64,000 nt of DNA from Hyphomicrobium sp. GTDB taxonomy: Bacteria > Pseudomonadota > Alphaproteobacteria > Rhizobiales > Hyphomicrobiaceae. The notes beneath the pieces are model-generated. The model was not told where the DNA came from. It did not search any database and saw only the letters and a program-made list of their open reading frames with translations. Positions within the stretch are counted from its first letter, which is position 1. Every line of letters starts with the position of its first letter. Shown here piece after piece: positions 7,069 to 44,513 of this stretch. The DNA is taken from positions 1 through 64,000 of the forward strand of contig NZ_JAIELN010000012.1 in NCBI RefSeq assembly GCF_019753045.1. The letters run 5' to 3'. The translations under genes were made by a program, and so were the position numbers.

Positions 7069-7863
7069 CTATACCGCTACTGGCGCCTTGATGTGCGGGT
7101 GAGGGTCGTAGCGTGTCAGCTCGAAGTCTTCGTATCTGAAGTCGAAGATCGATGAGACGCCGGGATTTATCTTCATCTCAGGGAGCGCGCGCGGCGTGCG
7201 CGACAGCTGCAGATCCGTCTGCTCCAGGTGATTGAGATAAAGGTGCGCGTCGCCGAACGTGTGGACGAAATCTCCCGGCTTCAGCCCTGTCACCTGCGCC
7301 ATCATCATCGTCAGCAGCGCGTAGCTCGCAATGTTGAACGGCACGCCGAGGAACACGTCGGCCGAGCGCTGATAAAGCTGGCAGGAGAGCTTCCCGTCGG
7401 TGACATAGAATTGGAAAAGGCAATGGCAGGGCGCCAATGCCATTTTCGAGAGGTCGCCGGGATTCCAAGCCGTCACGATGATGCGGCGCGAATCCGGATT
7501 GCGCTTCAGATCGTCGACGACGTTGGCAATCTGATCGATGGTCGCGCCATCAGGGGTTTCCCAGCTTCGCCACTGCTTGCCATAGACCGGACCGAGATTG
7601 CCTTCCGCGTCCGCCCATTCGTCCCAGATGCTGACGCCATGTTCCTTCAGATACTGGGTATTCGTCGCGCCTGACAGAAACCACAGCAGCTCGACGATGA
7701 TCGACTTCAGGTGAAGCTTCTTCGTCGTGACGAGGGGGAAGCCCTCCGACAGGTCGAAGCGCATCTGGTGGCCGAAGACCGAAAGCGTGCCGGTGCCGGT
7801 GCGGTCGGTTTTCTTCGCGCCTTCGGTTCTGACGCGGCGCAGCAGGTCGAGGTATTGTTGCAT
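7069..7863 (-). CDS. thyA: Thymidylate synthase (ThyA)
   Basis: Methylates dUMP to dTMP with methylenetetrahydrofolate. The 264-residue length matches the classical bacterial enzyme. Visible landmarks are [18 protein letters not shown] at the N-terminus, the catalytic cysteine in [13 protein letters not shown], the phosphate-binding [11 protein letters not shown] arginines, and the dUMP-binding asparagine in [12 protein letters not shown]. This is the housekeeping enzyme; a very divergent relative lies in the island at 33742-34539. It and folA complete the thymidylate cycle. Confidence 0.98.
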
Positions 7864-27533: not shown

Positions 27534-27610
27534 GCACCCGTAGCTCAGCTGGATAGAGTGTCGCCCTCCGAAGGCGAAGGTCGCAGGTTCGAATCCTGCC
27601 GGGTGCGCCA
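27534..27610 (+). tRNA. tRNA-Arg (anticodon CCG)
   Basis: A complete 77-base cloverleaf with encoded CCA. Acceptor strands are GCACCCG (27534-27540) and CGGGTGC (27600-27606). The anticodon stem TCGCC/GGCGA encloses the loop CTCCGAA, so the anticodon is CCG reading CGG (Arg). The T-arm is GCAGG-TTCGAAT-CCTGC. Its 3' end is the attachment site of the following island. Confidence 0.97.
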
Positions 27611-27611
27611 T
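27597..27611 (+). other. attL: tRNA-Arg 3' end core
   Basis: TGCCGGGTGCGCCAT covers the last T-stem bases, the acceptor strand and the CCA of the tRNA plus one base. The identical 15-mer recurs at 44499-44513. The tRNA stays intact after integration, as is usual for tRNA-targeting tyrosine integrases. Confidence 0.88.
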
Positions 27612-27749: not shown

Positions 27750-29081
27750 ATGGCAAGGCACGTCGAGCAAGCACGGCCGCAGAAGCGGAATGGGTACTGG
27801 TATCTGGTGCGGGTGGTGCCGCAGGAGCTGGCAGAGCTGGACACGCGCGGCAAGGTTGTCGTTTCCACGCATATTCGAATAGCCGATGATCCTTATGCGG
27901 TGTCGGCAAGACCGGCGGTGGCGAAGCTTGATCGGGTGCTTCAGGAGTTCTGGGCGGATTTGCGCGCCGGCCGCGATCCATCGGCGCAAAAGACTTTTGA
28001 GAAAGCCGTGAAGCGTGCCCGCGATCTGGGCCTCACCTACATCGAAAAGTCCGAGCTCATGCAACTGAGCCTTGATGCGCTGGTGGAGCGGTTGGCGCTG
28101 CTCAAGCCCCTGACCGAGCAACAGCACAAGGATACCGCCGAAGTGGTGTGCGGGATGGTGCCTTTCCCGGGGACCAAGATTTCCGAGCTTGTTGATGAAG
28201 CCGAAAAATTGAAACAGGCTGAGCTAAACGGGATGTCGCCGAACCAAAGAAAGAAGTGGCGGAAAGCGCGGGAGAACGCCGTCAATCTATTCATCGACGT
28301 GATTGGGGGAGACAAGGCCCTTAAAGAAATATCGCGGGACGACGTGTTGGAATATAGGCAATTTTGGACGGACAGGATCGTGTCGGGAGAGGTCGTAACC
28401 GATACGGCAAACTCAAATTTGTTCCGCCTCAGCGGGATATTCTCGACCGTGAACAAGTTGAACCGATTGAAGTTGGACGCCGTTTTTGAGGACATCAAGA
28501 TTGCGGGGCCGGAGTATGAGGCCCGCTTTCCTTATTCGACGGATTTTATTCAGGACAAGTTTCTCGCGGAGGGGATGTTTGATGGTCTCAATGATGAGGC
28601 GCGCCGGATTATCTACGTGATTGTGGAAACGGGTCTGCGGTTGTCCGAAGCCGCGAATTTGGATGAGAAGACCATTTTTCTGGATGGGGATATTCCTCAC
28701 GTGTCCGTTGAGCCCAATGGGCGCAAGTTGAAGACGGCGGAGTCCAAACGAAAAGTGCCGCTTGTCGGCGTGGCTCTTCAGGCGATGAAGGCCCAGCCCA
28801 AGGGGTTTCCTCGTTACCGGGACCGCGAGGCATCGTTATCAGCCCTGATCAATAAGGCTTTGGACGCACGGGATATGCGGCCGAGAGGTGCCAAGCAAAG
28901 CGTGTATTCTCTGCGCCATTCATTTTCTGATCGGCTGCGCGCTGTTCTTTGCCCTGATAAAACCATCGATCAGTTGATGGGGCACGCGCGCAAGGGCATG
29001 CGTTACGGCGAGGGTGTGGACCTTCCGGTGGCGCAAAAGGTTTTGAATCAGATTGTGCTTCGCGGCCCTTCACGGATCTGA
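27750..29081 (+). CDS. int: Tyrosine-type site-specific integrase
   Basis: A 443-residue integrase that would catalyse insertion at tRNA-Arg. The N-terminal part opens with KRNGYWYLVRVVPQELAEL, as in integrases with a DUF6538-like head. A SAM-like core-binding region follows, and the catalytic domain starts near VETGLRLSEAANL, which carries the first Arg. The box II arginine and histidine are in YSLRHSFSDRLRAV. MGHARKGMRYGEG provides the late His and Tyr region. It is the first gene inside the island and reads away from the tRNA. Its stop overlaps the 3' end of the next, convergent gene by 12 bases. Confidence 0.93.
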   Translation: MARHVEQARPQKRNGYWYLVRVVPQELAELDTRGKVVVSTHIRIADDPYAVSARPAVAKLDRVLQEFWADLRAGRDPSAQKTFEKAVKRARDLGLTYIEKSELMQLSLDALVERLALLKPLTEQQHKDTAEVVCGMVPFPGTKISELVDEAEKLKQAELNGMSPNQRKKWRKARENAVNLFIDVIGGDKALKEISRDDVLEYRQFWTDRIVSGEVVTDTANSNLFRLSGIFSTVNKLNRLKLDAVFEDIKIAGPEYEARFPYSTDFIQDKFLAEGMFDGLNDEARRIIYVIVETGLRLSEAANLDEKTIFLDGDIPHVSVEPNGRKLKTAESKRKVPLVGVALQAMKAQPKGFPRYRDREASLSALINKALDARDMRPRGAKQSVYSLRHSFSDRLRAVLCPDKTIDQLMGHARKGMRYGEGVDLPVAQKVLNQIVLRGPSRI

Positions 29082-32130: not shown

Positions 32131-32166
32131 TTGACAGCGCCGCCGTGTGTGGTAAGAAATTCTTAC
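32131..32166 (+). promoter_or_regulatory. Promoter with palindromic operator of the nucleotide operon
   Basis: A -35 box TTGACA (32131-32136) and a -10-like TAAGAA (32153-32158) are 16 bases apart. The -10 lies inside the perfect palindrome GTAAGAAATTCTTAC (32152-32166, 7-1-7). The first gene starts 20 bases later. A repressor bound here would block the polymerase; the XRE protein encoded second in the operon is the obvious candidate. Confidence 0.7.
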
Positions 32167-32185
32167 TTGTGGTAATGAGGCGGTC

Positions 32186-32497
32186 ATGACGCGCGAAGAG
32201 GTCAAACAGAAGCTTGTGAACGTGCTGACTACGATTCAGACGAACAGCGGCTTGCCCTGCCCGCCGCTTGACGGATCGGTGAAACCGGCCGAGCAGCTGG
32301 AAAAATTCAACAGCAAGGTCTGGCCGGCGGCGATCGGCATGCTTTCGGCCGAGCTGAATTACGACATCGATGATGACATCAACATCTTCGCCTCAAAAGA
32401 CGGAACGGTCGCCTACACGATCGATGAAGTTGCGGACATGGCCTGCAAGCTGGCGAACGACACTAAGACCACGAAGAAGAAGGAAGCGGCGCAGTGA
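32186..32497 (+). CDS. Acyl-carrier-protein-like protein
   Basis: A 103-residue acidic helical protein, first in the operon. Residues 38-90 align with acyl carrier proteins: FNSKVWPAAIGMLSAELNYDI matches the LDSLxxVELVxxLEEEFxxxI helix II position by position, so Ser43 corresponds to the phosphopantetheine serine. DDDINIFASKDGTVAYTIDEVADMACKL then matches the helix III and IV region. The usual DSL is NSK, which is unusual, so carrier function is inference. It is supported by a holo-ACP synthase gene at the far end of the same cluster. Its stop overlaps the next start by 4 bases. Confidence 0.6.
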   Translation: MTREEVKQKLVNVLTTIQTNSGLPCPPLDGSVKPAEQLEKFNSKVWPAAIGMLSAELNYDIDDDINIFASKDGTVAYTIDEVADMACKLANDTKTTKKKEAAQ

Positions 32498-32868
32498 GTG
32501 AAACGGATGGCAAAAAACGCGCACAGACCGCGAAGCGCATTAGCGAAGCGCGAAAATCGGCGGGTCTTTCGCAGGGGCAGGTGGCCAAGCTGATGGAACT
32601 ACATCGGCCAACGATCTCGGAGATCGAAGCGGGAAACCGCCGCGTCACGGCCGAAGAACTGTCTACGTTCGCAAAGCTCTTCGATGTGACGGTCGGGTGG
32701 CTGCTGGGCGAAGCTTCGGACACCATCGAGACCGATGATCCGCGCGTCCAGCTTGCCGCACGGGAACTGAAGAAACTGAAACCCGAGGATCTGGACCGCC
32801 TGATGCGCCTCCTAGCAAGCATGCGTTCGGATGAAACGCCTAAGGCCAAGCGCGGAGGCAAATCATGA
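32494..32868 (+). CDS. XRE family helix-turn-helix regulator
   Basis: A 124-residue protein. Residues 11-70 form a Cro/CI-type helix-turn-helix (RISEARKSAGLSQGQVAKLMELHRPTISEIEAGNRRVTAEELSTFAKLF), followed by a dimerisation-like helix and a short basic tail. The start is GTG at 32494, overlapping the upstream stop (GTGA). It probably represses its own operon through the palindrome at 32152-32166. The next gene encodes an ImmA-type peptidase, which in other mobile elements cleaves such repressors. Confidence 0.92.
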   Translation: MSETDGKKRAQTAKRISEARKSAGLSQGQVAKLMELHRPTISEIEAGNRRVTAEELSTFAKLFDVTVGWLLGEASDTIETDDPRVQLAARELKKLKPEDLDRLMRLLASMRSDETPKAKRGGKS

Positions 32869-33749
32869 TACCGCAGCTCAAATCAATTGGCTGTGTCGAT
32901 AAGAAGGCCCTCACGCAGATGGCGATGAAGGCAGCCGTCAAGACCCGCGCGCGGGGAGGGCTCGATCAGATCAGCCCCGCCTGCATTTTCGATCTGTGCG
33001 AAAAGCTTGGCGTTCCCGTGCGCTTTACCGACATCAACATGGAAGGCATGTATAGCGGCGGCGAGGCGCCGCGAATCTTCGTGTCGTCGCAGCGGCCGCT
33101 CGCGCGCCGGGTCTTCACCTGCGGGCACGAGCTTGGCCATCACGAATTCGGGCACGGCACGACAATCGACGAGATGAAGGAAGAGGCGGCAGCGCTAAAG
33201 GACGAAAATCCCGACGAGTTTCTGGTCAACGCGTTCTCGAGTTTCGTCCTCATGCCGATCATTGGCCTGCGCGGTGCCTTCGCGCGCCGCCGCACCGATA
33301 TGCACACGGCCACGCCAGCGCAGATGTTCGCCGTCGCGAACAATTTCGGCGTCGGCTACGCTACGCTGGTCACGCATCTTGCATACGGCGTCCTGGAGAT
33401 CGCGGTTGGCCGCGCTCGGGAGCTGCTGAAAGCCACTCCGAAGTCCATCCGGAAGAGCTTGCTCGGCGACGATAGCGCTGACCCATTGTTGATAGTGGAC
33501 CCGTTCTGGCTCGCAAAGCCTATCGATGCCGAGGTCGGCACGTCGATTCTGCTGCCTGCGGGCAGCGCCGCCGGGGGCGACATCCTACAACCGGCAGGTA
33601 CGTGCGCGACCGGCGACATTTACAAAGCCGTTCGACCGGGTCTGGGCCGCGTAGGCCTTGGCGCCGGGAACGAGCATTTTGTGCGAGTATCGAAGAGAGG
33701 TTACGCCGGTCTCGCGAGATACCGGCACATGGAGGACGATGATGTCTAA
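32865..33749 (+). CDS. ImmA/IrrE family metallo-endopeptidase
   Basis: A 294-residue zinc peptidase. The active-site motif is FTCGHELGHHEFGHG, an HExxH pattern with a further His nearby, followed by VNAFSSFVLMPIIGLR, as in COG2856 proteins. It overlaps the XRE gene by 4 bases (ATGA), the classic immR-immA arrangement in which the peptidase destroys the repressor after a damage or infection signal. The C-terminal 80 residues are Gly/Ala-rich and then basic, beyond the core peptidase domain. It overlaps the next gene by 8 bases. Confidence 0.92.
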   Translation: MIPQLKSIGCVDKKALTQMAMKAAVKTRARGGLDQISPACIFDLCEKLGVPVRFTDINMEGMYSGGEAPRIFVSSQRPLARRVFTCGHELGHHEFGHGTTIDEMKEEAAALKDENPDEFLVNAFSSFVLMPIIGLRGAFARRRTDMHTATPAQMFAVANNFGVGYATLVTHLAYGVLEIAVGRARELLKATPKSIRKSLLGDDSADPLLIVDPFWLAKPIDAEVGTSILLPAGSAAGGDILQPAGTCATGDIYKAVRPGLGRVGLGAGNEHFVRVSKRGYAGLARYRHMEDDDV

Positions 33750-34539
33750 GTCCATTGACGCGGACGTGCCCGAAGTGATTGAGGGCGCCAATCTTTCCTG
33801 GGCATGGGCCGATGCCATTCGCAAGATCCAGGGCAAGCGCGGCCATACGCTCTCGCCCTTGCTCATCAGCATTCACGGATTCGATGCAGCGGGCTATCCG
33901 GTTGAAGACCCGGCTATGCGTCAGGATCTCGATGCGCTGCTCGCCGCCCAAAAAGAGTGGGATATCGAAACGGTCGCCTTCACGATCTTTCCCGAGCGGC
34001 TTTACCAGATCGCGGGCGGCGACCGGGCCAAGCTTTTTGACATCTATCGCCGCACCTTCCCGAAATACCAGGCTATGAACCGGCAGCTCAACGGCAAAGG
34101 CCTGTATTTCGAGCGACTGACAATGTTCGGCCGCGGGCCCTCCAACGGCAATCAGCTCGAGTTCATCATCGACCAGTTTTCGGGGCGCAAGGGTGTCCGG
34201 GATTCGATGCTTCAGGCGTCGATCTTCGATCCCGAGCGCGATCACAGCAGCAGCGCACAGCTTGGCTTTCCGTGCCTTCAGCATGTCTCCTTCGTGCCGA
34301 CGAACGATGGCATGGTGACCAACGCCTTTTACGCCACGCAGCAGCTCTTCAATAAAGCCTACGGTAATTATCTCGGCCTCGCGCAGCTCGGCCGCTTCGT
34401 CGCCAAAGAGTGCGGCATGAAGCCAGCCAGACTCAACGTCTATGTCGGCGTGGCGAAGCTTGAAGGAATTGCAAAGTCGGACCCGAGGCTGGTCGCACTT
34501 GTTGATGCCGCCGGAACGCGAATGCAGGCGGCCGCATGA
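33742..34539 (+). CDS. Divergent thymidylate-synthase-family enzyme
   Basis: A 265-residue protein related to thymidylate synthase and dCMP/dUMP hydroxymethylases. The nucleophile cysteine is Cys178 in LGFPCLQHVSFVP, followed at the usual spacing by AFYATQQLFNKAYGNYLGLAQLGRFVA, which matches the ThyA xxGNxxxLAxL nucleotide-binding block with its Asn. A central FGRGPSNGNQLEFIIDQF holds the region just before the cysteine. It is far from the housekeeping ThyA at 7069. ATG 33742 is preferred because GGAGG lies 6 bases upstream. The likely substrate is a deoxypyrimidine 5'-monophosphate, and the product may be a 5-substituted form; that is inference. Confidence 0.75.
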   Translation: MSKSIDADVPEVIEGANLSWAWADAIRKIQGKRGHTLSPLLISIHGFDAAGYPVEDPAMRQDLDALLAAQKEWDIETVAFTIFPERLYQIAGGDRAKLFDIYRRTFPKYQAMNRQLNGKGLYFERLTMFGRGPSNGNQLEFIIDQFSGRKGVRDSMLQASIFDPERDHSSSAQLGFPCLQHVSFVPTNDGMVTNAFYATQQLFNKAYGNYLGLAQLGRFVAKECGMKPARLNVYVGVAKLEGIAKSDPRLVALVDAAGTRMQAAA

Positions 34540-36311
34540 AAACTTCGAAGTCTTCACGCAAGAAAACGCCCCGGAGGCCGACACCGCACCCGGCCATGAC
34601 TTGCCGCGGCCAGTTGATCGTATTCGAGGGCCCGGACGGTGTCGGCAAGTCGACTTTGGCAAAGATGGTCGTGCAGACCTTGAACGCCCAGGGCCGCAGC
34701 TGCCGCCTCATGTCATTCCCGGGCCGGGAAGATGGCACTCTCGGGCAACTCGTCTATCGTCTGCATCACAACGCGGCTGCGCTTGGCGTTCAATCGATTT
34801 CGGAAACGGCCCGGCAGGCCCTGCACGTCGCCGCCCACCTCGACGTCATGGAAAGAGTCATTCTGCCGGCGCTCGCGTCCGGCGAGCACGTGATCCTCGA
34901 CCGCTTCTGGTGGTCAACGCTGGTATATGGCAAGGCCGGCGGTATCGAAAGCAGCACATTGAAGGCCTTGATCGAGCCCGAGATCCGTCTTTGGGGCGAC
35001 CAGCCCATGACACTATTCCTGATTGATCGCGACACACCGATCGATCGCGATGAGGATGCCGGTTACTGGCAGAAGCTCAGGGGCTTGTACGCCGGGCTGG
35101 CTAAAGAAAGCATCAGCGCGCATCGCGTGGAGTCCATTTACAATACCGCAACCCTTACCGACGCAATGTCCGAAATTTTGGCGCGGCTACCCGAGGCTGT
35201 CCGTTCAAAAGTGAAGACAGGACAGCGGAAGGCCGCGGATCAGATTTCCATGGCGTTTCACCCGGCGAAACAGAGCGCGCAGAAGGCCGAAGCGCCTACC
35301 GTTTTTTCAAGACTTGGACCCGCAAAGCCAACCGTCGTCTTCGATACGTATTGGCGTTTTGCGGTAGAGCGACAGGAGGTCTTCTTCCGCCGCCTGCAGG
35401 GTCTGCGACGCCCCTGGACGGCCGATCCGATTATCGAGGAGCACAAGTTCACCAACGCCTACCGGGCATCGGACCGGGTCAGCCAGTACCTGATCCGCAA
35501 CGTCATCTATCGCGATGACCTCTCATCTGCCCCTGAGGAAGTTTTCTTCCGTATCCTGATCTACAAGCTCTTCAATAAGATCGAGACATGGGGGCTGCTC
35601 GAAAAGGCGCTCGGAGCGATCACATACGAGGACTATAGCTTCCGGCGGTACGATGCCATTCTCTCTAAAGCGCTATCGCGCGGTGAACGCATCTACTCGG
35701 CGGCCTACATCATGCCGCCCGGAAGCCGCGCGTTCGGCCACTCGGCGAAGCATCAGAACCATCTGAAACTGCTGGAATCGATGATGCGCGACGACTTGCC
35801 GTCTCGGCTCGCCGCTGCGCGGCGCATGCAGGATGCGTTCGAACTGCTGCTATCATATCCGACCATCGGCGATTTTCTCGCCTATCAGTTTGTCACCGAC
35901 ATCAACTACAGCGAAATTACAAACTTCTCGGAAATGGATTTCGTCATGCCGGGGCCTGGCGCGCTCGACGGTATCCGAAAGTGCTTCTCGAATCTCGGCG
36001 GTCTGAACGAGCCCGAAATTATAAAGCTCGTTGCGGACCGGCAGGCTGACGAACTTGCGCGGCTCGGTTTACAGTTCCGGTCCCTCTTTGGACGCAGGCT
36101 GCAGCTCATCGACTGCCAGAACCTCTTTTGCGAGGTCGATAAATACGCGCGCGTCGCACATCCGGAGATCACGGGCCTCACTGGTCGCACGCGCATCAAG
36201 CAGAAATTTTCGCCGATCTCCAAGCCGATCAACTTCTGGTTCCCGCCAAAATGGGGAATCAACGATGCCGTTGCCGAATTTTCTCCACAGACAAGAAAAC
36301 CCGCAGCATAA
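34536..36311 (+). CDS. Thymidylate-kinase domain fused to a thymine-hypermodification-type domain
   Basis: A 591-residue two-part protein. Residues 25-225 form a dTMP-kinase-like P-loop domain: QLIVFEGPDGVGKSTLAKM (Walker A), then HVILDRFWWSTLVYG with the kinase DR motif. Residues 285-590 form a helical domain opening DTYWRFAVERQEVFFRRLQG and PWTADPIIEEHKFTNAYRASDR. This pattern is that of the proteins described as 5-hydroxymethyl-dU DNA kinase helical domain or alpha-glutamyl/putrescinyl-thymine pyrophosphorylase, known from phages with hypermodified thymine; the clade assignment is from memory. The start overlaps the upstream stop (ATGA). It would phosphorylate a pyrimidine nucleotide and further alter it or its DNA form. 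Confidence 0.78.
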   Translation: MKTSKSSRKKTPRRPTPHPAMTCRGQLIVFEGPDGVGKSTLAKMVVQTLNAQGRSCRLMSFPGREDGTLGQLVYRLHHNAAALGVQSISETARQALHVAAHLDVMERVILPALASGEHVILDRFWWSTLVYGKAGGIESSTLKALIEPEIRLWGDQPMTLFLIDRDTPIDRDEDAGYWQKLRGLYAGLAKESISAHRVESIYNTATLTDAMSEILARLPEAVRSKVKTGQRKAADQISMAFHPAKQSAQKAEAPTVFSRLGPAKPTVVFDTYWRFAVERQEVFFRRLQGLRRPWTADPIIEEHKFTNAYRASDRVSQYLIRNVIYRDDLSSAPEEVFFRILIYKLFNKIETWGLLEKALGAITYEDYSFRRYDAILSKALSRGERIYSAAYIMPPGSRAFGHSAKHQNHLKLLESMMRDDLPSRLAAARRMQDAFELLLSYPTIGDFLAYQFVTDINYSEITNFSEMDFVMPGPGALDGIRKCFSNLGGLNEPEIIKLVADRQADELARLGLQFRSLFGRRLQLIDCQNLFCEVDKYARVAHPEITGLTGRTRIKQKFSPISKPINFWFPPKWGINDAVAEFSPQTRKPAA

Positions 36312-36329
36312 ATAATCGAGGGATACTTT

Positions 36330-37226
36330 ATGGATTTTGACCGATATCAGGATGTAGCGCAGGGGACGGACCGTGTTCCAAGCTCTGCCAAAGGCGAAGG
36401 CGATCTCAGTGTGATCGTGCCGTTGCTCGGCCTCGCCGGCGAGGCCGGCGGTCTTCTCAGCGAATATAAAAAATTCCTGCGCGACGGACCCGCCCACAAG
36501 CTCTTCAAGCAACGCGTTGGCGAGGAGCTGGGCGATATTCTCTGGTATGTCGCGAACATTGCCCGGAAATTCGACCTGCGGCTCGGCGAGATCGCCGAAG
36601 ACAATCTTGCAAAGATCAAGGATCGGTGGGGAACGGCTGCTGCGCAGTCGCAGCTTTTTCCCGAAGCCTACGATTACGACAGCGGGTTCCCGCCAGACGA
36701 GCGGTTTCACCGCCAAATGGATATCGAGCTTCGCGTCACCACGAAAGGCGGCAAGGAAGTGATCCAGCTGCTTGTCGATGGCAAGCAATGCGGCGACGAC
36801 CTGCGGGATAACGCATACACCCCGGATGGCTACGGGTTTCATGACGTCATCCACTTCGCCCACCTCGCGGTTCTCGGCTGGTCGCCGGTGCTGCGAAAGC
36901 TTCTCGGGTGCAAGCGGAAGAGCCACGAGCTGATCGACGAGGTCGAGGATGGCGGCCGGGCAGGGGCCATCGAAGAAGGCCTTGCCGCCGTCGTCTTCGA
37001 CTGCGCCCGCAGCCATGATTTCTTCGGGGGCGTCAAGTACGTCGACTACGAGCTTCTTCGCACGCTCAAGAGCGCGGCCCAGCATCTCGAGGTCCGACGT
37101 TGCTCTCTCGCCGACTGGCAGTCGGCCATCCTGCAGGGTTACGCGGTCTGGCGTCCGATCGCTGAGGCGAGGGGAGGCAAGTTCCACGTCGATCTCGATG
37201 CCCGCACCGTCAGTTTGAGCAAGTAG
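36330..37226 (+). CDS. MazG-like nucleotide pyrophosphohydrolase with extra C-terminal domain
   Basis: A 298-residue protein. Residues 20-95 are MazG-like: LLGLAGEAGGLLSEYKKFLRD, VGEELGDILWYVANIARKF and LGEIAEDNLAKIKDRW carry the EExxE and ExxD metal ligands. Residues 110-298 form a second domain with YGFHDVIHFAHLAVLGWSP and SHELIDEVEDGGRAGAIEEGLAAVVF, a conserved-looking His/Asp and Glu-rich block of unknown role. MazG domains hydrolyse NTPs to NMPs, so it may feed monophosphates into the operon or clear canonical dNTPs. It lies 18 bp after the kinase gene and overlaps the convergent acpS by 17 bases. Confidence 0.8.
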   Translation: MDFDRYQDVAQGTDRVPSSAKGEGDLSVIVPLLGLAGEAGGLLSEYKKFLRDGPAHKLFKQRVGEELGDILWYVANIARKFDLRLGEIAEDNLAKIKDRWGTAAAQSQLFPEAYDYDSGFPPDERFHRQMDIELRVTTKGGKEVIQLLVDGKQCGDDLRDNAYTPDGYGFHDVIHFAHLAVLGWSPVLRKLLGCKRKSHELIDEVEDGGRAGAIEEGLAAVVFDCARSHDFFGGVKYVDYELLRTLKSAAQHLEVRRCSLADWQSAILQGYAVWRPIAEARGGKFHVDLDARTVSLSK

Positions 37227-37614
37227 GAATATCGGGGCCGACGGCGACCACACTCGCGATAGCGAGCGTGTTCGAATGCGAGAGGCTGACGAGGAAACTC
37301 GATATGCCTTTTTCCCTCGTTATGCGCTCGACCTCGCCGGAAACGATGATCGACGGAGCGCCGTTTGGTGCGCTGCGAAGCTCGATGTCTTTCCAGCTGA
37401 TCCCCGTCACCCAGCCGGTACCAAGCGCTTTCAAGACGGCTTCCTTCGCGGCAAACCGCGCAGCCAATCGCTCAGTGCGCCGGTCGGCGTCGCCGGCTTT
37501 GTCGAGCTCAAGCTCGGTGAAGCACCGGCGGGCCATGTCGGCGGTGGGCTCTCGCAGAAGCCGATCGAATTCCGCAAGTTCAACGATATCGATGCCATGG
37601 GCAAGCACACGCAT
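37210..37614 (-). CDS. acpS: Holo-[acyl-carrier-protein] synthase
   Basis: A 134-residue 4'-phosphopantetheinyl transferase of the AcpS type, which moves phosphopantetheine from CoA to a carrier-protein serine. LAHGIDIVELAEFDRLL carries the metal-binding Asp, RLAARFAAKEAVLKALGTG the conserved F(A/S)xKEAxxKA block, and FLVSLSHSNTLAIASVVA the final SHS strand. It is convergent with the MazG-like gene and overlaps its 3' end by 17 bases. The host should have its own acpS elsewhere, so this island copy probably serves the carrier-like protein at 32186-32497. Confidence 0.9.
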   Translation of the reverse strand: MRVLAHGIDIVELAEFDRLLREPTADMARRCFTELELDKAGDADRRTERLAARFAAKEAVLKALGTGWVTGISWKDIELRSAPNGAPSIIVSGEVERITREKGISSFLVSLSHSNTLAIASVVAVGPDIPTCSN

Positions 37615-38662: not shown

Positions 38663-39177
38663 CGGCAGGTTCGGCGGCCTTTCCTCGATAATCACGTATC
38701 CGTGCCGCCAGCTCATCTTTACAATCATCGCCCTTATCCTCGCCGCCCCCCTCGGGATGGAGCTTCGTGCCCATGGCGCAGAGTTGGGGCATCCGTAGTC
38801 TTGTCCGCTTAAAAATCGACTGCAGACATATTCTAAGCATACGCATTCGACGCTTATCGACTTTGAGCCAAATTCCGCTTTCTCGGCACCTGAGAAACCC
38901 TGATCGGACAAAATGCGATGACATCCCGCGCGTTGAAGCGCGTCAACTTGCAGATCTAAATTCTGTTCGTCGGTGGAGACACGAGCGTATCCGAGCCCGC
39001 GGAGCGATCAACTCATCAACATCACCGCCAGCGCTGCCTTGAGCGGAACCAACACGCTGCACGCGGTCATCGTCGAATCACGATAAGGGCACGACCAACA
39101 ATGAGCCTCCGCAACTCGGGGCTTTTTCGTCTGAGAATCAGACACAATGCGAAGCATTCATCGCGAAGGTGATTGCC
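38663..39177. other. Intergenic; possible decayed gene
   Basis: About 515 bp. At its right end one + frame up to a stop near 39087 reads LINITASAALSGTNTLHAVIVESR, a protein-like C-terminus with no matching upstream part in frame, so a degraded gene remnant is possible. A weak hairpin followed by TTTTT lies near 39105-39127. Minus-strand open frames over 38460-38920 have no ribosome site or family resemblance. Confidence 0.4.
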
Positions 39178-40122
39178 ATGAGCAAAAAATCATTGTCGGA
39201 GCGGGTGGGTCTAAACGCGGTCGAGCGGATATTCCTCGAAGAATTTGAATGGTTTTTCAGGGAGAAGCCCATCCTCGACTGGGGCATCGATGCCGAGGTG
39301 GAAGTTGTCGAAGACAGCAAGCCCACCGGCAAACTAATTGCGCTGCAGATCAAAAGCGGAAGCTCTTATTTCAAGAAGAAGGGGAGCGACTACGTCTACT
39401 ATGGCGAGATGCGCCACCTCGAATATTGGTCCCAGCACTGCCTGCCCGTGTATATCATCCTGCATGATGAAGACACCGGGCTCACCCTTTGGCAGAAGAT
39501 CGATCGCCCTCTCTGCGAGGAACACAAGAAGGGCTGGTCGATCAAAATTCCCGCTACCAACGTCCTCAACAAAGACGCCAAACCTTTCATCGAGGCCGGG
39601 TTGCCCGAGAACGAGGAAGGAGCACGGCGTCTCAGGTTCGCCCTCGACATAGATCTCATGGAAAAAATCGGCGATGGCCCCGTCACCATCATTTGGCAGG
39701 ACTGGGTGAACAAAGGTCTTGGCTTGCGCAATCCCAAAATCTACCTCGGAGATTACGACCGCACCTTTGACGACCGCGAGCCGGACATGGAATTTCCAAT
39801 GTGCTGGATACCCGGTCATGACGTCGGGTTTGTCATGTCCCTTCTGATGCCTTGGCTTGAATACATCTACGGTGAGGAAGTGGAATCTGATGCGGAAGTT
39901 GAAGAACACGTCCTTCTAGGAAAGCTCACTGGCGCGGCGAAGGGATATTTGGCGGCTGAGAGATTTTTCAAGAATGGTCCTGATCAGAAAACACCTGAGT
40001 TACCCAGGCGCGGATTTGGCGACGATCCTGAAGACGAAGACCTGATCCGCGAGCGCCAAGAGTGGTGGGAAAACATGCGCGACGTGGACGTCAGCAAAGA
40101 GCCCATCGACGATACGTTTTGA
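39178..40122 (+). CDS. DUF4365 domain protein, restriction-endonuclease-like fold
   Basis: A 314-residue protein. Residues 5-140 match DUF4365: ERVGLNAVERIFLEEFEWFF, then DWGIDAEVEVVED and GKLIALQIKSGSSYF, which supply the D...E-x-K (here Q-I-K) pattern of the PD-(D/E)xK nuclease fold. EYWSQHCLPVYIILHDED is the usual following strand. The C-terminal half is unassigned. ATG 39178 is preferred over a GTG at 39169 because of GAAGG spacing. DUF4365 proteins are frequent in defence islands; the target here is unknown. Confidence 0.82.
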   Translation: MSKKSLSERVGLNAVERIFLEEFEWFFREKPILDWGIDAEVEVVEDSKPTGKLIALQIKSGSSYFKKKGSDYVYYGEMRHLEYWSQHCLPVYIILHDEDTGLTLWQKIDRPLCEEHKKGWSIKIPATNVLNKDAKPFIEAGLPENEEGARRLRFALDIDLMEKIGDGPVTIIWQDWVNKGLGLRNPKIYLGDYDRTFDDREPDMEFPMCWIPGHDVGFVMSLLMPWLEYIYGEEVESDAEVEEHVLLGKLTGAAKGYLAAERFFKNGPDQKTPELPRRGFGDDPEDEDLIRERQEWWENMRDVDVSKEPIDDTF

Positions 40123-40273
40123 TGGGCGGCGAGCTGTGTTAGAATCAGAACATGGGCGGAGCGGCTTGGGTTCGACTATTCCCGCTAGGCCTGCCGCAAA
40201 GATGGGTCGCTTTATCCCGCTGGCGGACGGCGTGGAGGTCTGCGTCAGCGTGAGCAAGCGCCGACACTAATTA

Positions 40274-41032
40274 TTATTGCTTGCAGTGCACGGATTTGAG
40301 CCATTCCGCTAGGTGATCAAGGTCGCCGAAAACAGTGAACTGATTGACGCCGGCGAGTTCCAGTTCTTTCTTGATCCGTACCTTTGCGGCCGCAGGAATT
40401 TTATACGCACGCAACGTGCTATTTGTATCATTGGTCAGCTCTCGTGCTTCCGGTGTATGGAACGTGAAATATCCGCGCTGCCTGGAAATGCGTTGATCGG
40501 CGTGATCGGGCCTTATAGGGATGATGTAAGGAGGAAATTTTCGTTTGTGCCAGTTGGTGATGATTTGAATGGCTTTGCGAACCTCCTCGTTTCGTGACGT
40601 CGCGACGCCTTCGAACGTTTCTTCCGCCTGCTGGTTCACCGAGAGCATGTAAGAGTCCATGAAAAACAACTTACCATCCGCCGTCGGCTCATGCTCCGTA
40701 GCGAAATAGAGCGCCGCCAAGGGGTCGGCCGACCAGTCGAGCAGGCGGGTTGGCATCCGGTAGTGTTGCTGCAGGAAGTAAAGATCGACGTCGTCCTCGC
40801 CTCCCTTTCGAAGACCCGCAGACATGATTCGAAAATCTTGAGACAAGTGTCGCTCGGTGGTTAAGAGCTCTTCCTCGTTGCTGCTCTCCTTAAGCCGATA
40901 AATTCCGGGCACCAGTTTCCAGTCGGATCTGGCATGACCGCGAAACCACCTTCGCAGGTGCTGCCGACGAGCGGGGATAGGCGTTTTACCGATTTCAGTC
41001 AGGAGAACGCTGATACTTGTTATTTCGGTCAC
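40274..41032 (-). CDS. FRG domain-containing protein
   Basis: A 252-residue protein of the FRG family. The N-terminal RRWFRGHARSDWKLVPGIYR is the defining FRG motif, and FLQQHYRMPTRLLDWSADPLAALYFATEH is the second conserved block. FRG proteins recur in phage-defence clusters, but no biochemical activity is established to my knowledge. It lies 33 bp downstream of 41066-42091 on the same strand, so they form a two-gene unit. Confidence 0.9.
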   Translation of the reverse strand: MTEITSISVLLTEIGKTPIPARRQHLRRWFRGHARSDWKLVPGIYRLKESSNEEELLTTERHLSQDFRIMSAGLRKGGEDDVDLYFLQQHYRMPTRLLDWSADPLAALYFATEHEPTADGKLFFMDSYMLSVNQQAEETFEGVATSRNEEVRKAIQIITNWHKRKFPPYIIPIRPDHADQRISRQRGYFTFHTPEARELTNDTNSTLRAYKIPAAAKVRIKKELELAGVNQFTVFGDLDHLAEWLKSVHCKQ

Positions 41033-41065
41033 ACCAACACCTATGCCCTAACGCACAAGGCATTC

Positions 41066-42091
41066 TTACGCCCGACGGAAAGTCTTTGACGTCCCACCAA
41101 CGATCCCGCGCCTGCGCTTCTCCTCACGGACGAACTCAAGCAACCGATCTTGCCAACCGTCGGAATGCACGATCCGATGATACGGAACATCGCGGAGTCT
41201 GAGTAGATCAATACGTGACCGGCGAGACGTTACGCTCCAATCCTCGAAAAGAATCCAAATTGCGTTTCCATATCTGACGTTTTCAAAGACAACAAGATCG
41301 TCCGCAAACTGAGCACCAATATAGCGGTTCATCCCACCGGCCCCGCGTAGATAGCGTAACGGCTTCGTCTTCATGAAGAGCTCGGTGCGCTGCCGAATGA
41401 CCTCGTCCAGGTCGGGCGAGGCGCTGCGGCCCGAACCGCGAAAGAACCGTTCGACTTCTAATGCGGTGCCGGGTGGGAAGAACTCCCAACTCATCTCGAT
41501 AGATGCAAGAAGATCGACGCTAGATGCGTCTGCCACGAGCAATCCGGCAGCACCGACGTTTTCTTGAAGAATGTTGAGCGCGAACAGCAAGTCCCGCTCG
41601 AAGTCCTCTGAAGCTCGATCGAGAGGCCAATCCAGGGAGAAGCTGATGACGGCAGCCTGCGGTGACTTCTTCAAGAGCTTAACGTGGATCGCGAACAGCG
41701 GGGCTTCCACGTAATCGTACTGGTAGCACTCGCGGTCCCATTCCATTGTGTGGGAGCCATTGCCCCAGTCGCCGTAGTTAGGGGTCTCGATGCTAAAAGT
41801 CCGCGTGACCATCGGCAGATCGTCTCGACGGATCTCCCATCCCTCGCGATTTCGTCGCGAAAAAATCCCCATTTCAGCAATCGGCACCACGCGCTCTTTT
41901 AGGATGATGCCGCCAGCGGCTAATCCCAGGCCAAGATGACGGTACGTTCCCGCTTCGAGGTCCGAGTTTGAGATCGTCTTCACAACGCCGACTACAAACC
42001 GTTTATCGGGGCTTTCTTTCAACTGTTCCCGTACGGAGTCTGGGATCTTGCGAAGATTCCGCTTCCAGGGAACCTCTCGATATTTCACCAT
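41066..42091 (-). CDS. Unknown protein paired with the FRG protein
   Basis: A 341-residue soluble protein, family not recognised. It has no signal peptide or membrane segment. Noticeable segments are RFVVGVVKTISNSDLEAGTY, a Trp/Asp-rich NYGDWGNGSHTMEWDREC block, SFSLDWPLDRASEDFERDLLFALNIL and a basic C-terminus (EEKRRRGIVGG). The start at 42091 has AGGTGA 5 bases upstream; an in-frame codon 75 bases further upstream lacks support. It precedes the FRG gene by 33 bp and may be its partner, for example as sensor or regulator. Confidence 0.7.
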   Translation of the reverse strand: MVKYREVPWKRNLRKIPDSVREQLKESPDKRFVVGVVKTISNSDLEAGTYRHLGLGLAAGGIILKERVVPIAEMGIFSRRNREGWEIRRDDLPMVTRTFSIETPNYGDWGNGSHTMEWDRECYQYDYVEAPLFAIHVKLLKKSPQAAVISFSLDWPLDRASEDFERDLLFALNILQENVGAAGLLVADASSVDLLASIEMSWEFFPPGTALEVERFFRGSGRSASPDLDEVIRQRTELFMKTKPLRYLRGAGGMNRYIGAQFADDLVVFENVRYGNAIWILFEDWSVTSRRSRIDLLRLRDVPYHRIVHSDGWQDRLLEFVREEKRRRGIVGGTSKTFRRA

Positions 42092-42372
42092 GTTGTCACC
42101 TAGTCTATCGCGCCGCCCCCCATGGTCCCGATGCATCGATTCCGTCGCTGTGGTCAATGCTGACAATCTTGGGTCGGATAAATTCGAGATCCGTCGAATT
42201 GTGCCTCTGGCCCAGAGTCTGAAGGACTTCCCTTTGGGAAGTCCAGCTAACGCCCAGGACAGGTTCTTAAGCCCTCAGTTGGGCGATAGAAAACGCTGGA
42301 ATTACAAAGCGTTGTCAGATTCTATCGGACAACCTATCGTCCAGATGCAACGGATAAGGTTCGATTTGTCCT

Positions 42373-44016
42373 TTAGGAATTGTGGACTGCACGATACCGG
42401 CGCCACCGTTTTTCCCCCTCAAACGCCACGGTACCGTCCGCAACGAGAGTGTCCAGCGCACGCTTGATTTGCTTGGCGTTGATCTCGGCGCCCACCCGGC
42501 GATTGATTTCGCCGGCCGCCGAGTTCGGGTAGCGCCGAAGATCCTCTTCGATAAGCGCCCTCAGCCGATGCGGCTCGATCCTGCCCAGTGTGGTCGGAAC
42601 GGCTATGTCGAGACGACGCATCACATCCGACGCCACGAAATAGCGGGTCGCCTTGGTTCGGCCGGCCGTCCCCACCAAACCAAAACCCTGCAGTCTGCCG
42701 AGCCAAGGGCGAAGCTCGTCGACGTCATCGAGCATGAGAGCGCCAACTAACTGCTTCGCGGTCATGTGCTCCGCCTGTGCCAGCAATCCCAAGCAAATCA
42801 TTTCCCGCTGCTTGAGATGGTAGCTCTGGTTGGCCTTGCCGAGGAGGTCGATAATCGAAGGCTTCAAGATGCGGCGGCCGATCGTCACCTCAACGCGGTC
42901 CTGGACCTCCCGTAGATGCGGCACGTCCCGTCCCTGGCCCAACAGCACCTCGTACATGGTGTCGAAGCCGGAGCCCTCGCGATCCATAAGCTTCAGATCG
43001 TGGAATACGCGTGCCAGTCCCTCGTTTCGCCGCACCGTGACATGGAGCACCGTTGCGGGCGTAACGCCAATGGGAAGCGGTCCGGGATTCTGAACCTCTA
43101 GGCGATCGGGAAAAGACTTCAGAAAGATGTCGCCGCGCTGTGTGTAGGGCCGGTGGACCAATGCGTTGACCAACAATTCGCGCACAACCGTCTCGTCATA
43201 AGCGGGTACCAACTTACGGAAAAGGCCGTCAGGAAGCTCGTAGGTCTCCCGAAAGTCCGGAACCTCGGTCCAAATGGCATCAACAAGCTCGATCGGTGAT
43301 AGACTGAAATCATCCCATACCAATTTGTTGAGCTTATCGTCGTGCTCATCATACTTGATGAACTGCACGACTGGCGCTGTGCCCAAGGCGGCACGGTCCT
43401 GCCGCCGCCCGATGCAGAGGATGCCAAGATTGGTGAGCAACCGGCCGTCAGCAAAGGAGTAGTGCTCGAGCAATTCGTCGTCGGTTTTCTCCTTAACAGA
43501 GGATTTTACACGATCAGAGGCACGGATACGGCCTATTAGTGCAGAGAGCTTGGCTGGATCGACTTGTGAGTGCGGAATGCCGGCGGAGGTCAATGATTCC
43601 CACGACACAGTGGCGCGATCGCTCAGGAGGCGCAGGATTTCATCGCCGACGATGGGGCGATTGCGGTCCCCTTCACGCAAATAATATTTACCGCCGCTCG
43701 TCGAGGGAACTGACGTGGAACGCGGAATAATCAGTTCTATGTAGGCGCCCCCGTTATCTGATACATGGAGCGATGCCTCCAGCGAAACGTTTACGGCAAG
43801 CTGCCCAATGCGTTGGGTGATGCCCGTTGGCAAGTTGGGGGCAATAATTTGATTGGCTGGCGGTTTGTCATCACCGTCCTCGATTCCGATATAGATGGCC
43901 CCCCCGTTAGCGGTCGCGAAGGCTACGCAACTCTCCGCCAATCCGTGCCAGTCAGCACTTCCGCCCATCACTTTGCGTAGGGATTTTTTCTCGAAATGGT
44001 GATGCTCGCCCGCCAT
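42373..44016 (-). CDS. Schlafen/AlbA_2-type ATP-binding protein
   Basis: A 547-residue protein. The N-terminal domain is of the AlbA_2 (Schlafen-like) type, with FEKKSLRKVMGGSADWHGLAES and CVAFATANGGAIYIGIEDG. The middle has a GHKL-type ATPase region: VVRELLVNALVHRPYTQRGDIF (N-box), then PDRLEVQNPGPLP. The C-terminus contains winged-helix-like segments. Such proteins are annotated as transcriptional regulators or defence factors. It is the last gene before the right att site and reads away from it. Confidence 0.88.
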   Translation of the reverse strand: MAGEHHHFEKKSLRKVMGGSADWHGLAESCVAFATANGGAIYIGIEDGDDKPPANQIIAPNLPTGITQRIGQLAVNVSLEASLHVSDNGGAYIELIIPRSTSVPSTSGGKYYLREGDRNRPIVGDEILRLLSDRATVSWESLTSAGIPHSQVDPAKLSALIGRIRASDRVKSSVKEKTDDELLEHYSFADGRLLTNLGILCIGRRQDRAALGTAPVVQFIKYDEHDDKLNKLVWDDFSLSPIELVDAIWTEVPDFRETYELPDGLFRKLVPAYDETVVRELLVNALVHRPYTQRGDIFLKSFPDRLEVQNPGPLPIGVTPATVLHVTVRRNEGLARVFHDLKLMDREGSGFDTMYEVLLGQGRDVPHLREVQDRVEVTIGRRILKPSIIDLLGKANQSYHLKQREMICLGLLAQAEHMTAKQLVGALMLDDVDELRPWLGRLQGFGLVGTAGRTKATRYFVASDVMRRLDIAVPTTLGRIEPHRLRALIEEDLRRYPNSAAGEINRRVGAEINAKQIKRALDTLVADGTVAFEGEKRWRRYRAVHNS

Positions 44017-44498: not shown

Positions 44499-44513
44499 TG
44501 CCGGGTGCGCCAT
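44499..44513 (+). other. attR: second copy of tRNA-Arg 3' end core
   Basis: TGCCGGGTGCGCCAT, identical to the tRNA end at 27597-27611, in the same orientation. Flanking bases differ on both sides (CA before and TAAA after, versus CC and ACCC at the left). Confidence 0.88.

Follow-up and report, generated by a model that had tools for sequence, protein, structure and literature searches.

Thymidylate synthase, dNMP kinase and 5-hydroxymethyluracil kinase are among the defence domains which DefensePredictor validated by tests in E. coli MG1655, and its predicted defence domains include MazG, MazG-C and aGPT-Pplase, according to the accessible part of that report (PMC13092281). Here we describe an operon of seven genes which, together with its putative promoter, spans positions 32131 to 37614 of a 64,000-nucleotide stretch of Hyphomicrobium sp. 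DNA (contig NZ_JAIELN010000012.1, forward strand; hereafter the window). It encodes an acyl carrier protein (ACP)-like protein, an XRE-family repressor, an ImmA peptidase, a divergent thymidylate-synthase-fold enzyme (hereafter ThyA*), a kinase fused to a PF18723 domain, MazG and the holo-ACP synthase AcpS. The thymidylate-synthase, dNMP-kinase and 5-hydroxymethyldeoxyuridine (5-hmdU) kinase families are common to the operon and the validated domains; however, the main text of the report, so far as accessible, names no carrier protein and no ImmA (PMC13092281). Similarly to the operon, phage thymidine hypermodification has a thymidylate-synthase-fold enzyme, a P-loop kinase and PF18723 in one protein, and PUGT, which matches PF18723 by fold. 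Unlike it, the operon is bacterial and carries a repressor switch, a carrier protein and AcpS. An amine- or group-transferring enzyme is not recognised among its seven proteins, PF18723 itself resembling PUGT. With CapH/CapP of CBASS and with PprI/DdrO the operon shares an XRE repressor and, after it, an M78 peptidase with HEXXH, but CBASS genes are absent here, the ACP gene stands first and the operator has its own specific sequence. TIR-Nmad2 operons have the PF18723 or MazG_C effector families in common with ours and carry TIR and Nmad2 genes in place of ACP-XRE-ImmA-ThyA*. Finally, the C5 hydroxymethylase MilA and the hydroxylase AfhB share the fold of ThyA*, but at 12% identity over the aligned part, and the Asn at the base position of ThyA* suggests a uracil nucleotide.

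We found no description of ACP, XRE, ImmA and ThyA together in the literature searched, a set which does not extend to Iyer 2013, Burroughs 2015 and a hypermodification-pathway paper. The claim of a preliminary description of this DNA, that no named system has this gene set, holds for the exact set as far as searched, but the accessible text of DefensePredictor has already assigned a thymidylate synthase and a 5-hmdU kinase to defence (PMC13092281). What is new, within the same limits, is the carrier-protein core.

All seven frames are open over 32186-37614, each having a correct start codon and only one stop. TTGACA at 32131-32136, the candidate -35 element of the operon promoter, and the palindrome GTAAGAAATTCTTAC at 32152-32166, likely the XRE operator by its conserved position, precede the ACP-like gene (32186-32497). 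It is followed on the plus strand by the genes of XRE (32494-32868, GTG start; HTH_3 1.3e-13), the ImmA/IrrE (M78) metallopeptidase (32865-33749; Peptidase_M78 1e-12), ThyA* (33742-34539), the thymidylate kinase (TMK) domain fused to PF18723, the helical domain of 5-hmdU DNA kinase (34536-36311), and MazG with a MazG_C domain (36330-37226; MazG_C 8.5e-69, MazG 1.3e-4), while AcpS (37210-37614; ACPS 2.2e-17) is on the minus strand. Successive genes overlap by 4, 4, 8 and 4 bases, an 18-base gap precedes MazG, and the convergent AcpS overlaps it by 17 bases. Hence, the coordinates and open frames bear out the compact operon with convergent AcpS of the preliminary description, and the hexamer and palindrome support its single promoter ahead of the ACP gene. 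The loss of catalytic residues, which that description would have counted against itself, was checked, and the residues are kept in ImmA, ThyA*, TMK and the carrier. A broken operon is ruled out by the seven open frames and the kept active-site residues, except for one Arg-to-Ala change in ThyA*. The seven proteins were compared with Pfam, PADLOC, NCBIfam and PHROGs, where no nuclease family was recognised and the only such matches were of fusion models to shared HTH or P-loop parts; restriction-modification and type IV restriction are thus ruled out.

The operon is almost certainly a real conserved unit, and an old one. We scanned 133 loci and defined 37 core loci by a ThyA* match at E<1e-25; 44 short search loci or weak loci (L020-L025, L040-L053, L140-L163) were left out of the tally. 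The 37 loci are 36 distinct ones, as L164 equals L035 in 253/253 sampled 50-mers, and L036 and L173-L176 are close plasmid relatives, not independent. XRE and ImmA are both present in 36 of the 37 and a recognisable ACP in 34; counted as lacking it are L057, which ends inside XRE, L061, whose weak match (7e-6) was scored as a miss, and L167, which has none. The four-gene ACP-XRE-ImmA-ThyA* core nearly always travels together. Around it, a MazG-profile gene is found in 30/37 loci, a dCTP deaminase near 12/37 and TMK near 5/37. The order ACP-XRE-ImmA-ThyA*-PF18723-MazG recurs with AcpS on plasmids of Rhizobium rosettiformans and Sinorhizobium fredii and in a Novosphingobium metagenome-assembled genome (MAG), as well as on Allocoleopsis and Nostoc plasmids. 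Close variants occur in a Bacteroidia MAG and in Paraflavisolibacter, and Streptomyces keeps the first four genes in one group, with PF18723 and MazG on the opposite strand. With this order found again in further phyla, the unit is more than chance.

Among plasmids, tblastn finds relatives of ACP (E up to 1) in four records and relatives of ImmA (E up to 1e-5) in the same four, all of which carry the operon. ThyA* occurs in 19 plasmid records, all of which were examined, with ACP, XRE and ImmA found by profiles in 19/19; 13 of the 19 are predicted conjugative. Among whole genomes, own included, ThyA* is present in 8/397 of the order and in 16/398 of the phylum (4 strong and 12 weak; the weak ones, with best E of 8e-9 to 8e-15 per genome and frames of 503-786 aa, were dropped before counts). 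All ten different genomes with strong ThyA* were examined, and nine have XRE and ImmA, the exception being L167. PF18723 is rare, being present in 5/398 genomes of the phylum and 4/397 of the order, own included, and in one of six other genomes of the genus sampled. That homologues of these genes occur apart, which was raised earlier as a point of doubt, is true for PF18723, AcpS and TMK; ACP, XRE, ImmA and this type of ThyA are nearly always together. L167:6237-8862 has a dCTP deaminase adjoining a distant ThyA*, and what may be a protein of UDG type (weak, 1e-4), and lacks XRE, ImmA and ACP. L060:2899-8048, a putative uncultivated viral contig, has ACP-XRE-ImmA-ThyA* and the window-type TMK-PF18723 fusion, after which comes a radical SAM gene.

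The core comes in two types, with PF18723 or a uracil-DNA glycosylase (UDG) alternating downstream: PF18723 is found in 20 of the 37 cores, UDG in 16 and both in none. A function on bases in DNA would agree with such an exchange. The sister loci (L034-L038, L165, L166, L168-L171, L173-L176) have ACP-XRE-ImmA-C1 peptidase-ThyA* with UDG and mostly with MazG_C and dCTP deaminase; in L168 the UDG gene is interrupted, and L019 has a split ThyA*. All 16 UDG loci have the papain-like C1 peptidase, as do the PF18723 loci L019 and L061, and the Cys, His and Asn of the peptidase are kept in 11 aligned rows. Chagasins inhibit papain-like peptidases. A chagasin-family I42 domain is found in the ImmA of 7/7 scanned C1-peptidase loci, in four above the Pfam cut-off, whereas the two ImmAs scanned from peptidase-free loci do not match it. 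The chagasin-domain ImmA next to an intact C1 peptidase makes a protease cascade likely.

ThyA* has no Pfam match and matches NCBIfam thy_syn_methano at 1.3e-9, under the cut-off of that model. Its structure model (pLDDT 80.9, from 8 sequences) gives 395 Foldseek matches at E<=0.001. The top match is 9iqc, a riboflavin-dependent monooxygenase with dCMP and FAD (3.3e-10), the second is 9iqu, AfhB, the dCMP hydroxylase of phage HY126 (9.8e-10), and thymidylate synthases and MilA come later. In the VIA comparison the top match has Z 16.9 (rmsd 3.2, 207 residues), followed by 9iqu with Z 16.9 (3.4, 204) and MilA with Z 16.6 (3.1, 208), which is a tie. The closest folds to ThyA* are those of enzymes which modify pyrimidines at C5. 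Against PDB sequences the ThyA* profile gives 0 matches at 0.1 and the single sequence a weak match to MilA (0.0094); a literature search on 5-hydroxycytosine hydroxylases returned no match. The catalytic Cys178 and Asn209 are kept in 32/33 rows, the odd row without Cys178 being the N-terminal piece of the split gene in L019. The Asn of ThyA* aligns with the base-selecting (uracil-selecting) Asn of thymidylate synthase. Thymidylate synthase with this Asn changed to Asp takes dCMP, which fits the title of 1njc, one of the Foldseek matches. The Asn at this position thus suggests a uracil nucleotide as the substrate. The phosphate-binding Arg of thymidylate synthase, which we take to be Arg166 of the E. 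coli enzyme, is Ala in the window and in 11 relatives and Arg in nine others. In addition, the window protein ends without the C-terminal segment present in both host ThyAs. An ordinary duplicate ThyA is ruled out, as the genome has two PF00303 ThyAs elsewhere and the ThyA* of the window lacks the Arg and the C-terminal segment. Altogether, family and fold support the earlier view of a unit built round an unusual deoxypyrimidine, and we are fairly confident that its function lies in pyrimidine or DNA chemistry. As for the canonical ThyAs, one lies in the window (7072-7860, minus strand) and the second elsewhere in the genome; two housekeeping-type copies are unusual.

The fusion protein matches Thymidylate_kin (3.7e-16) and PF18723 HMUDK_hel (2.4e-111, residues 267-546), so that its C-terminal part is the helical domain of 5-hmdU DNA kinase, which the preliminary description missed. 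The P-loop Lys is kept in 6/6 TMK rows. For the PF18723 structure model (pLDDT 85.9, from 15 sequences), the best VIA match (Z 10.6, rmsd 3.8, 223 residues) is PUGT, which phage PaMx11 uses as its 5-PmdU glycinyltransferase, followed by the queuosine salvage enzyme DUF2419 (10.2, rmsd 5.8) and HhH DNA glycosylases (9.5 and lower). The first 44 matches are base- or nucleoside-processing enzymes throughout. Searches against PDB sequences gave nothing below 0.3 for PF18723 and MazG, and PF18723 DNA had no match in E. coli genomes, which is uninformative at such distance. The fusion protein matches 491 phage records, the best ones listed in its PF18723 half, and 22 plasmid records match in the same half, of which 14 were examined and six lack the core, some of the stretches being short.

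Several other neighbourhoods of PF18723 genes were seen. Pairs of TIR and Nmad2 genes lie near PF18723 and/or MazG_C genes in L010, L012, L015, L026 and L033, an ACP-free form, and L015 also has UDG and TMK. In Mucilaginibacter a 2OG-Fe(II) oxygenase gene (L005:3912-4556; PF13532, 2.1e-21) is convergent with a lone PF18723 gene, and L007 and L009 have, judged by inspection, similar oxygenase genes beside PF18723. On Erythrobacter and Sphingosinicella plasmids (L030, L031) PF18723 genes adjoin DNA polymerase III epsilon-like and alpha genes.

The window ACP on its own has no PP-binding match in Pfam. Among seven operon relatives PF00550 is above the cut-off in two, L029 and L039 (Streptomyces, same operon position; 1.2e-7 and 9.1e-8), below it in three (L018, L034, L037) and without a match in two (L019, L027). 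The phosphopantetheine serine (DSL position), Ser43 in the window, is kept in 34/34 carriers, which comprise 29 distinct sequences. In the alignment with host AcpP, from which hostL044 was left out for its wrong frame, it coincides with the AcpP attachment serine in 20/20 rows. To judge from these alignments, the first gene probably encodes a carrier protein. An AcpS gene lies within 6 kb of 12/37 cores, and the host genome has four other PF01648 places besides the operon AcpS. The invariant serine and the nearby AcpS thus support the carrier protein with AcpS recognised earlier.

The best PADLOC match of XRE is capH (2.9e-15), with many other HTH models matching too, and ImmA matches capP at 4.2e-11 and keeps HELGH in 24/24 rows. 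An adjacent XRE and M78 peptidase with HEXXH, as in the CapH/CapP-type switch, is present in 36/37 loci. Single-stranded DNA activates CapP and PprI, as given in the accessible part of the source (PMC10904395). The palindrome GTAAGANNNTCTTAC has one match in the window, compared with 0/100 window shuffles, and is found at one place in the 4.52 Mb host genome. As a reversed control pattern also has one match per strand in the genome, a chance copy is not unlikely and it is the position of the operator which counts. The palindrome is found in 10/139 loci including the window, from Pseudomonadota, Cyanobacteria and Bacteroidota, and always just before the ACP gene; these are 10 of the 20 PF18723-type core loci. 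TTGAC stands 15-32 bases before the exact palindrome in 8/9 relatives (not L002) and 21 before it in the window, and Paraflavisolibacter has a form with one mismatch. In the UDG type another element, TGTYNGANNNTCNRACA, lies near the ACP start in 14/176 loci, 13 of the UDG type and the hybrid L019, and was not found in the UDG-type loci L034, L035 and L164; the two elements have GA-N3-TC in common. The palindrome is likely the operator of XRE, its position being established by comparison and its binding presumed. The XRE/ImmA switch of the preliminary description is thereby supported and gains a conserved predicted operator.

Hence, we suggest that the operon is a mobile, inducible anti-phage system which makes a C5-modified deoxyuridine nucleotide, then acted on in DNA by PF18723 or UDG; for this proposal as a whole we see even chances. 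Beyond the conserved unit, its operator, the intact active sites and the exchange of PF18723 for UDG, which are observed, we infer the chemistry, product, carrier cargo, trigger, target and defence. A function in phage defence is itself rather probable, as the system is sparse in genomes, is often on conjugative plasmids, has defence candidates as neighbours and has a switch like CapH/CapP.

At rest, XRE presumably sits on the GTAAGANNNTCTTAC operator and keeps the operon low. With infection or DNA damage ImmA would cleave XRE in the CapP/CapH style, as suggested by homology. ThyA* might then attach a group, of one carbon or of another kind, to C5 of a nucleotide like dUMP, and the phosphopantetheinylated ACP, judging from its invariant serine, may serve in this as the thiol, the donor or the acceptor. 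The kinase and MazG domains would steer the product into the nucleotide pool and the normal competitors out. The modified nucleotide would enter replicating DNA, mostly that of the phage, where the PF18723 protein, in the position taken by UDG in the sister type, would act on the modified base. The phage DNA might thus be hypermodified or broken, and its replication would fail.

Carrier proteins belong to fatty-acid and natural-product synthesis, and it is unexpected that on mobile elements one with an invariant serine is combined with a pyrimidine-modifying enzyme and a damage-type switch. We tentatively consider that the exocyclic methylene intermediate of ThyA* at C5 of a uracil nucleotide might be joined to the holo-ACP thiol or to a group carried by it, giving an immunity which uses phosphopantetheine. 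A carrier-tethered or an acyl/thiomethyl deoxyuridine could then, as tentatively, enter phage DNA, where PF18723 or UDG would process it. With the same reserve, the core might be a plug-in common to two effector types, one of them also with the ImmA-chagasin/papain cascade. If the proposed chemistry is true, bacteria would make a toxic or marking base via a tethered intermediate, and the fact that UDG can stand in place of PF18723 would indicate the role of the PF18723 family in bacteria. Direct testing is feasible, as the system is small, the operator is known from sequence and the key residues are named.

Several observations weigh against the proposed making and processing of a C5-modified deoxyuridine. 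With the phosphate-binding Arg lost in the ThyA* clade of the window, dUMP may not be the substrate. The PF18723 model has no Foldseek match at E<=0.001, and for a helical domain the Z of 10.6 with PUGT may reflect a common arrangement alone. PF18723 proteins lack the core in 10/14 loci of one search set, the lack being weak evidence in L005, L006 and L026, which hold 1-3 kb on one side. The exact GTAAGANNNTCTTAC was not found in 10/20 PF18723-type loci, including Streptomyces, L019 and three viral contigs, and no carrier-loading enzyme is recognised among the seven operon proteins in the four databases.

The PF18723 or UDG protein might instead attack 5-hydroxymethyl-dU or U in incoming DNA, in defence against phages with already modified pyrimidines, with ThyA*, MazG and dCTP deaminase guarding the host pool against the base under attack; we regard this as unlikely. 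The mutual exclusion of UDG (16 cores) and PF18723 (20 cores) agrees with such an attack, as do the PF18723 relatives common in phages (491 records match the fusion protein) and the action of phage 5-hmdU kinase on 5-hmdU in DNA, described in the accessible part of its source (PMC6449724). However, attack alone needs neither the C5-modifying enzyme, present in every core by definition of the set, nor the carrier found in 34/37, and no nuclease is recognised among the seven proteins.

The carrier could also belong to the switch, with holo- or acyl-ACP binding XRE or ImmA and reporting the metabolic or CoA state, and the rest being a plain nucleotide-modifying toxin. In loci of either effector type, and in the rearranged ones of Streptomyces, XRE and ImmA come immediately after the ACP gene, and a loading enzyme was not recognised among the seven proteins, both of which speak for this arrangement; nevertheless, ThyA* is linked as tightly as XRE and ImmA, and we do not expect this explanation to be the right one. 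Taken by itself, the choice between a carrier which belongs to the chemistry and one which belongs to the switch is about even.

Modification of the mobile element's own DNA, as an epigenetic mark or for protection during transfer against restriction, would agree with the 13/19 ThyA* plasmid records predicted to be conjugative and with some PF18723 genes lying beside replication genes. We consider such self-marking quite improbable, since the window copy is in a chromosomal island, the damage-type repressor switch suits an induced response better than constant marking and the UDG of the sister type would harm the marked DNA. Finally, a chance neighbourhood of unrelated genes, to which the occurrence of PF18723, AcpS and TMK apart from the core might point, is scarcely credible and is ruled out by the gene order and operator recurring across phyla.

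The operon lies in a tRNA-Arg island, as was proposed earlier, and the mobile setting is supported by the tRNA, the adjoining integrase, a 15-bp repeat and defence-like neighbour genes. The tRNA-Arg gene (27534-27610, plus strand; ARAGORN) carries at its 3' end the left 15-bp repeat (27597-27611, plus strand) and adjoins the integrase gene of the island (27750-29081, plus strand; Phage_integrase 9.1e-8). The exact repeat recurs as TGCCGGGTGCGCCAT at 44499-44513 (plus strand), likely an att site, and the two copies would delimit an island of some 17 kb. A resolvase (5.4e-48) is encoded within the same stretch. The island neighbours at 39169-44016 are likely further defence genes. They include a DUF4365 gene (39169-40122; PADLOC Aga_REase-PNTD1-PNTD2, 5.1e-18), an FRG-domain gene (40274-41032; PADLOC PDC-S15, 9.3e-47) and the gene of a Schlafen/AlbA_2 protein (42373-44016; 7.6e-7), the latter two flanking a gene without family assignment at 41066-42166.

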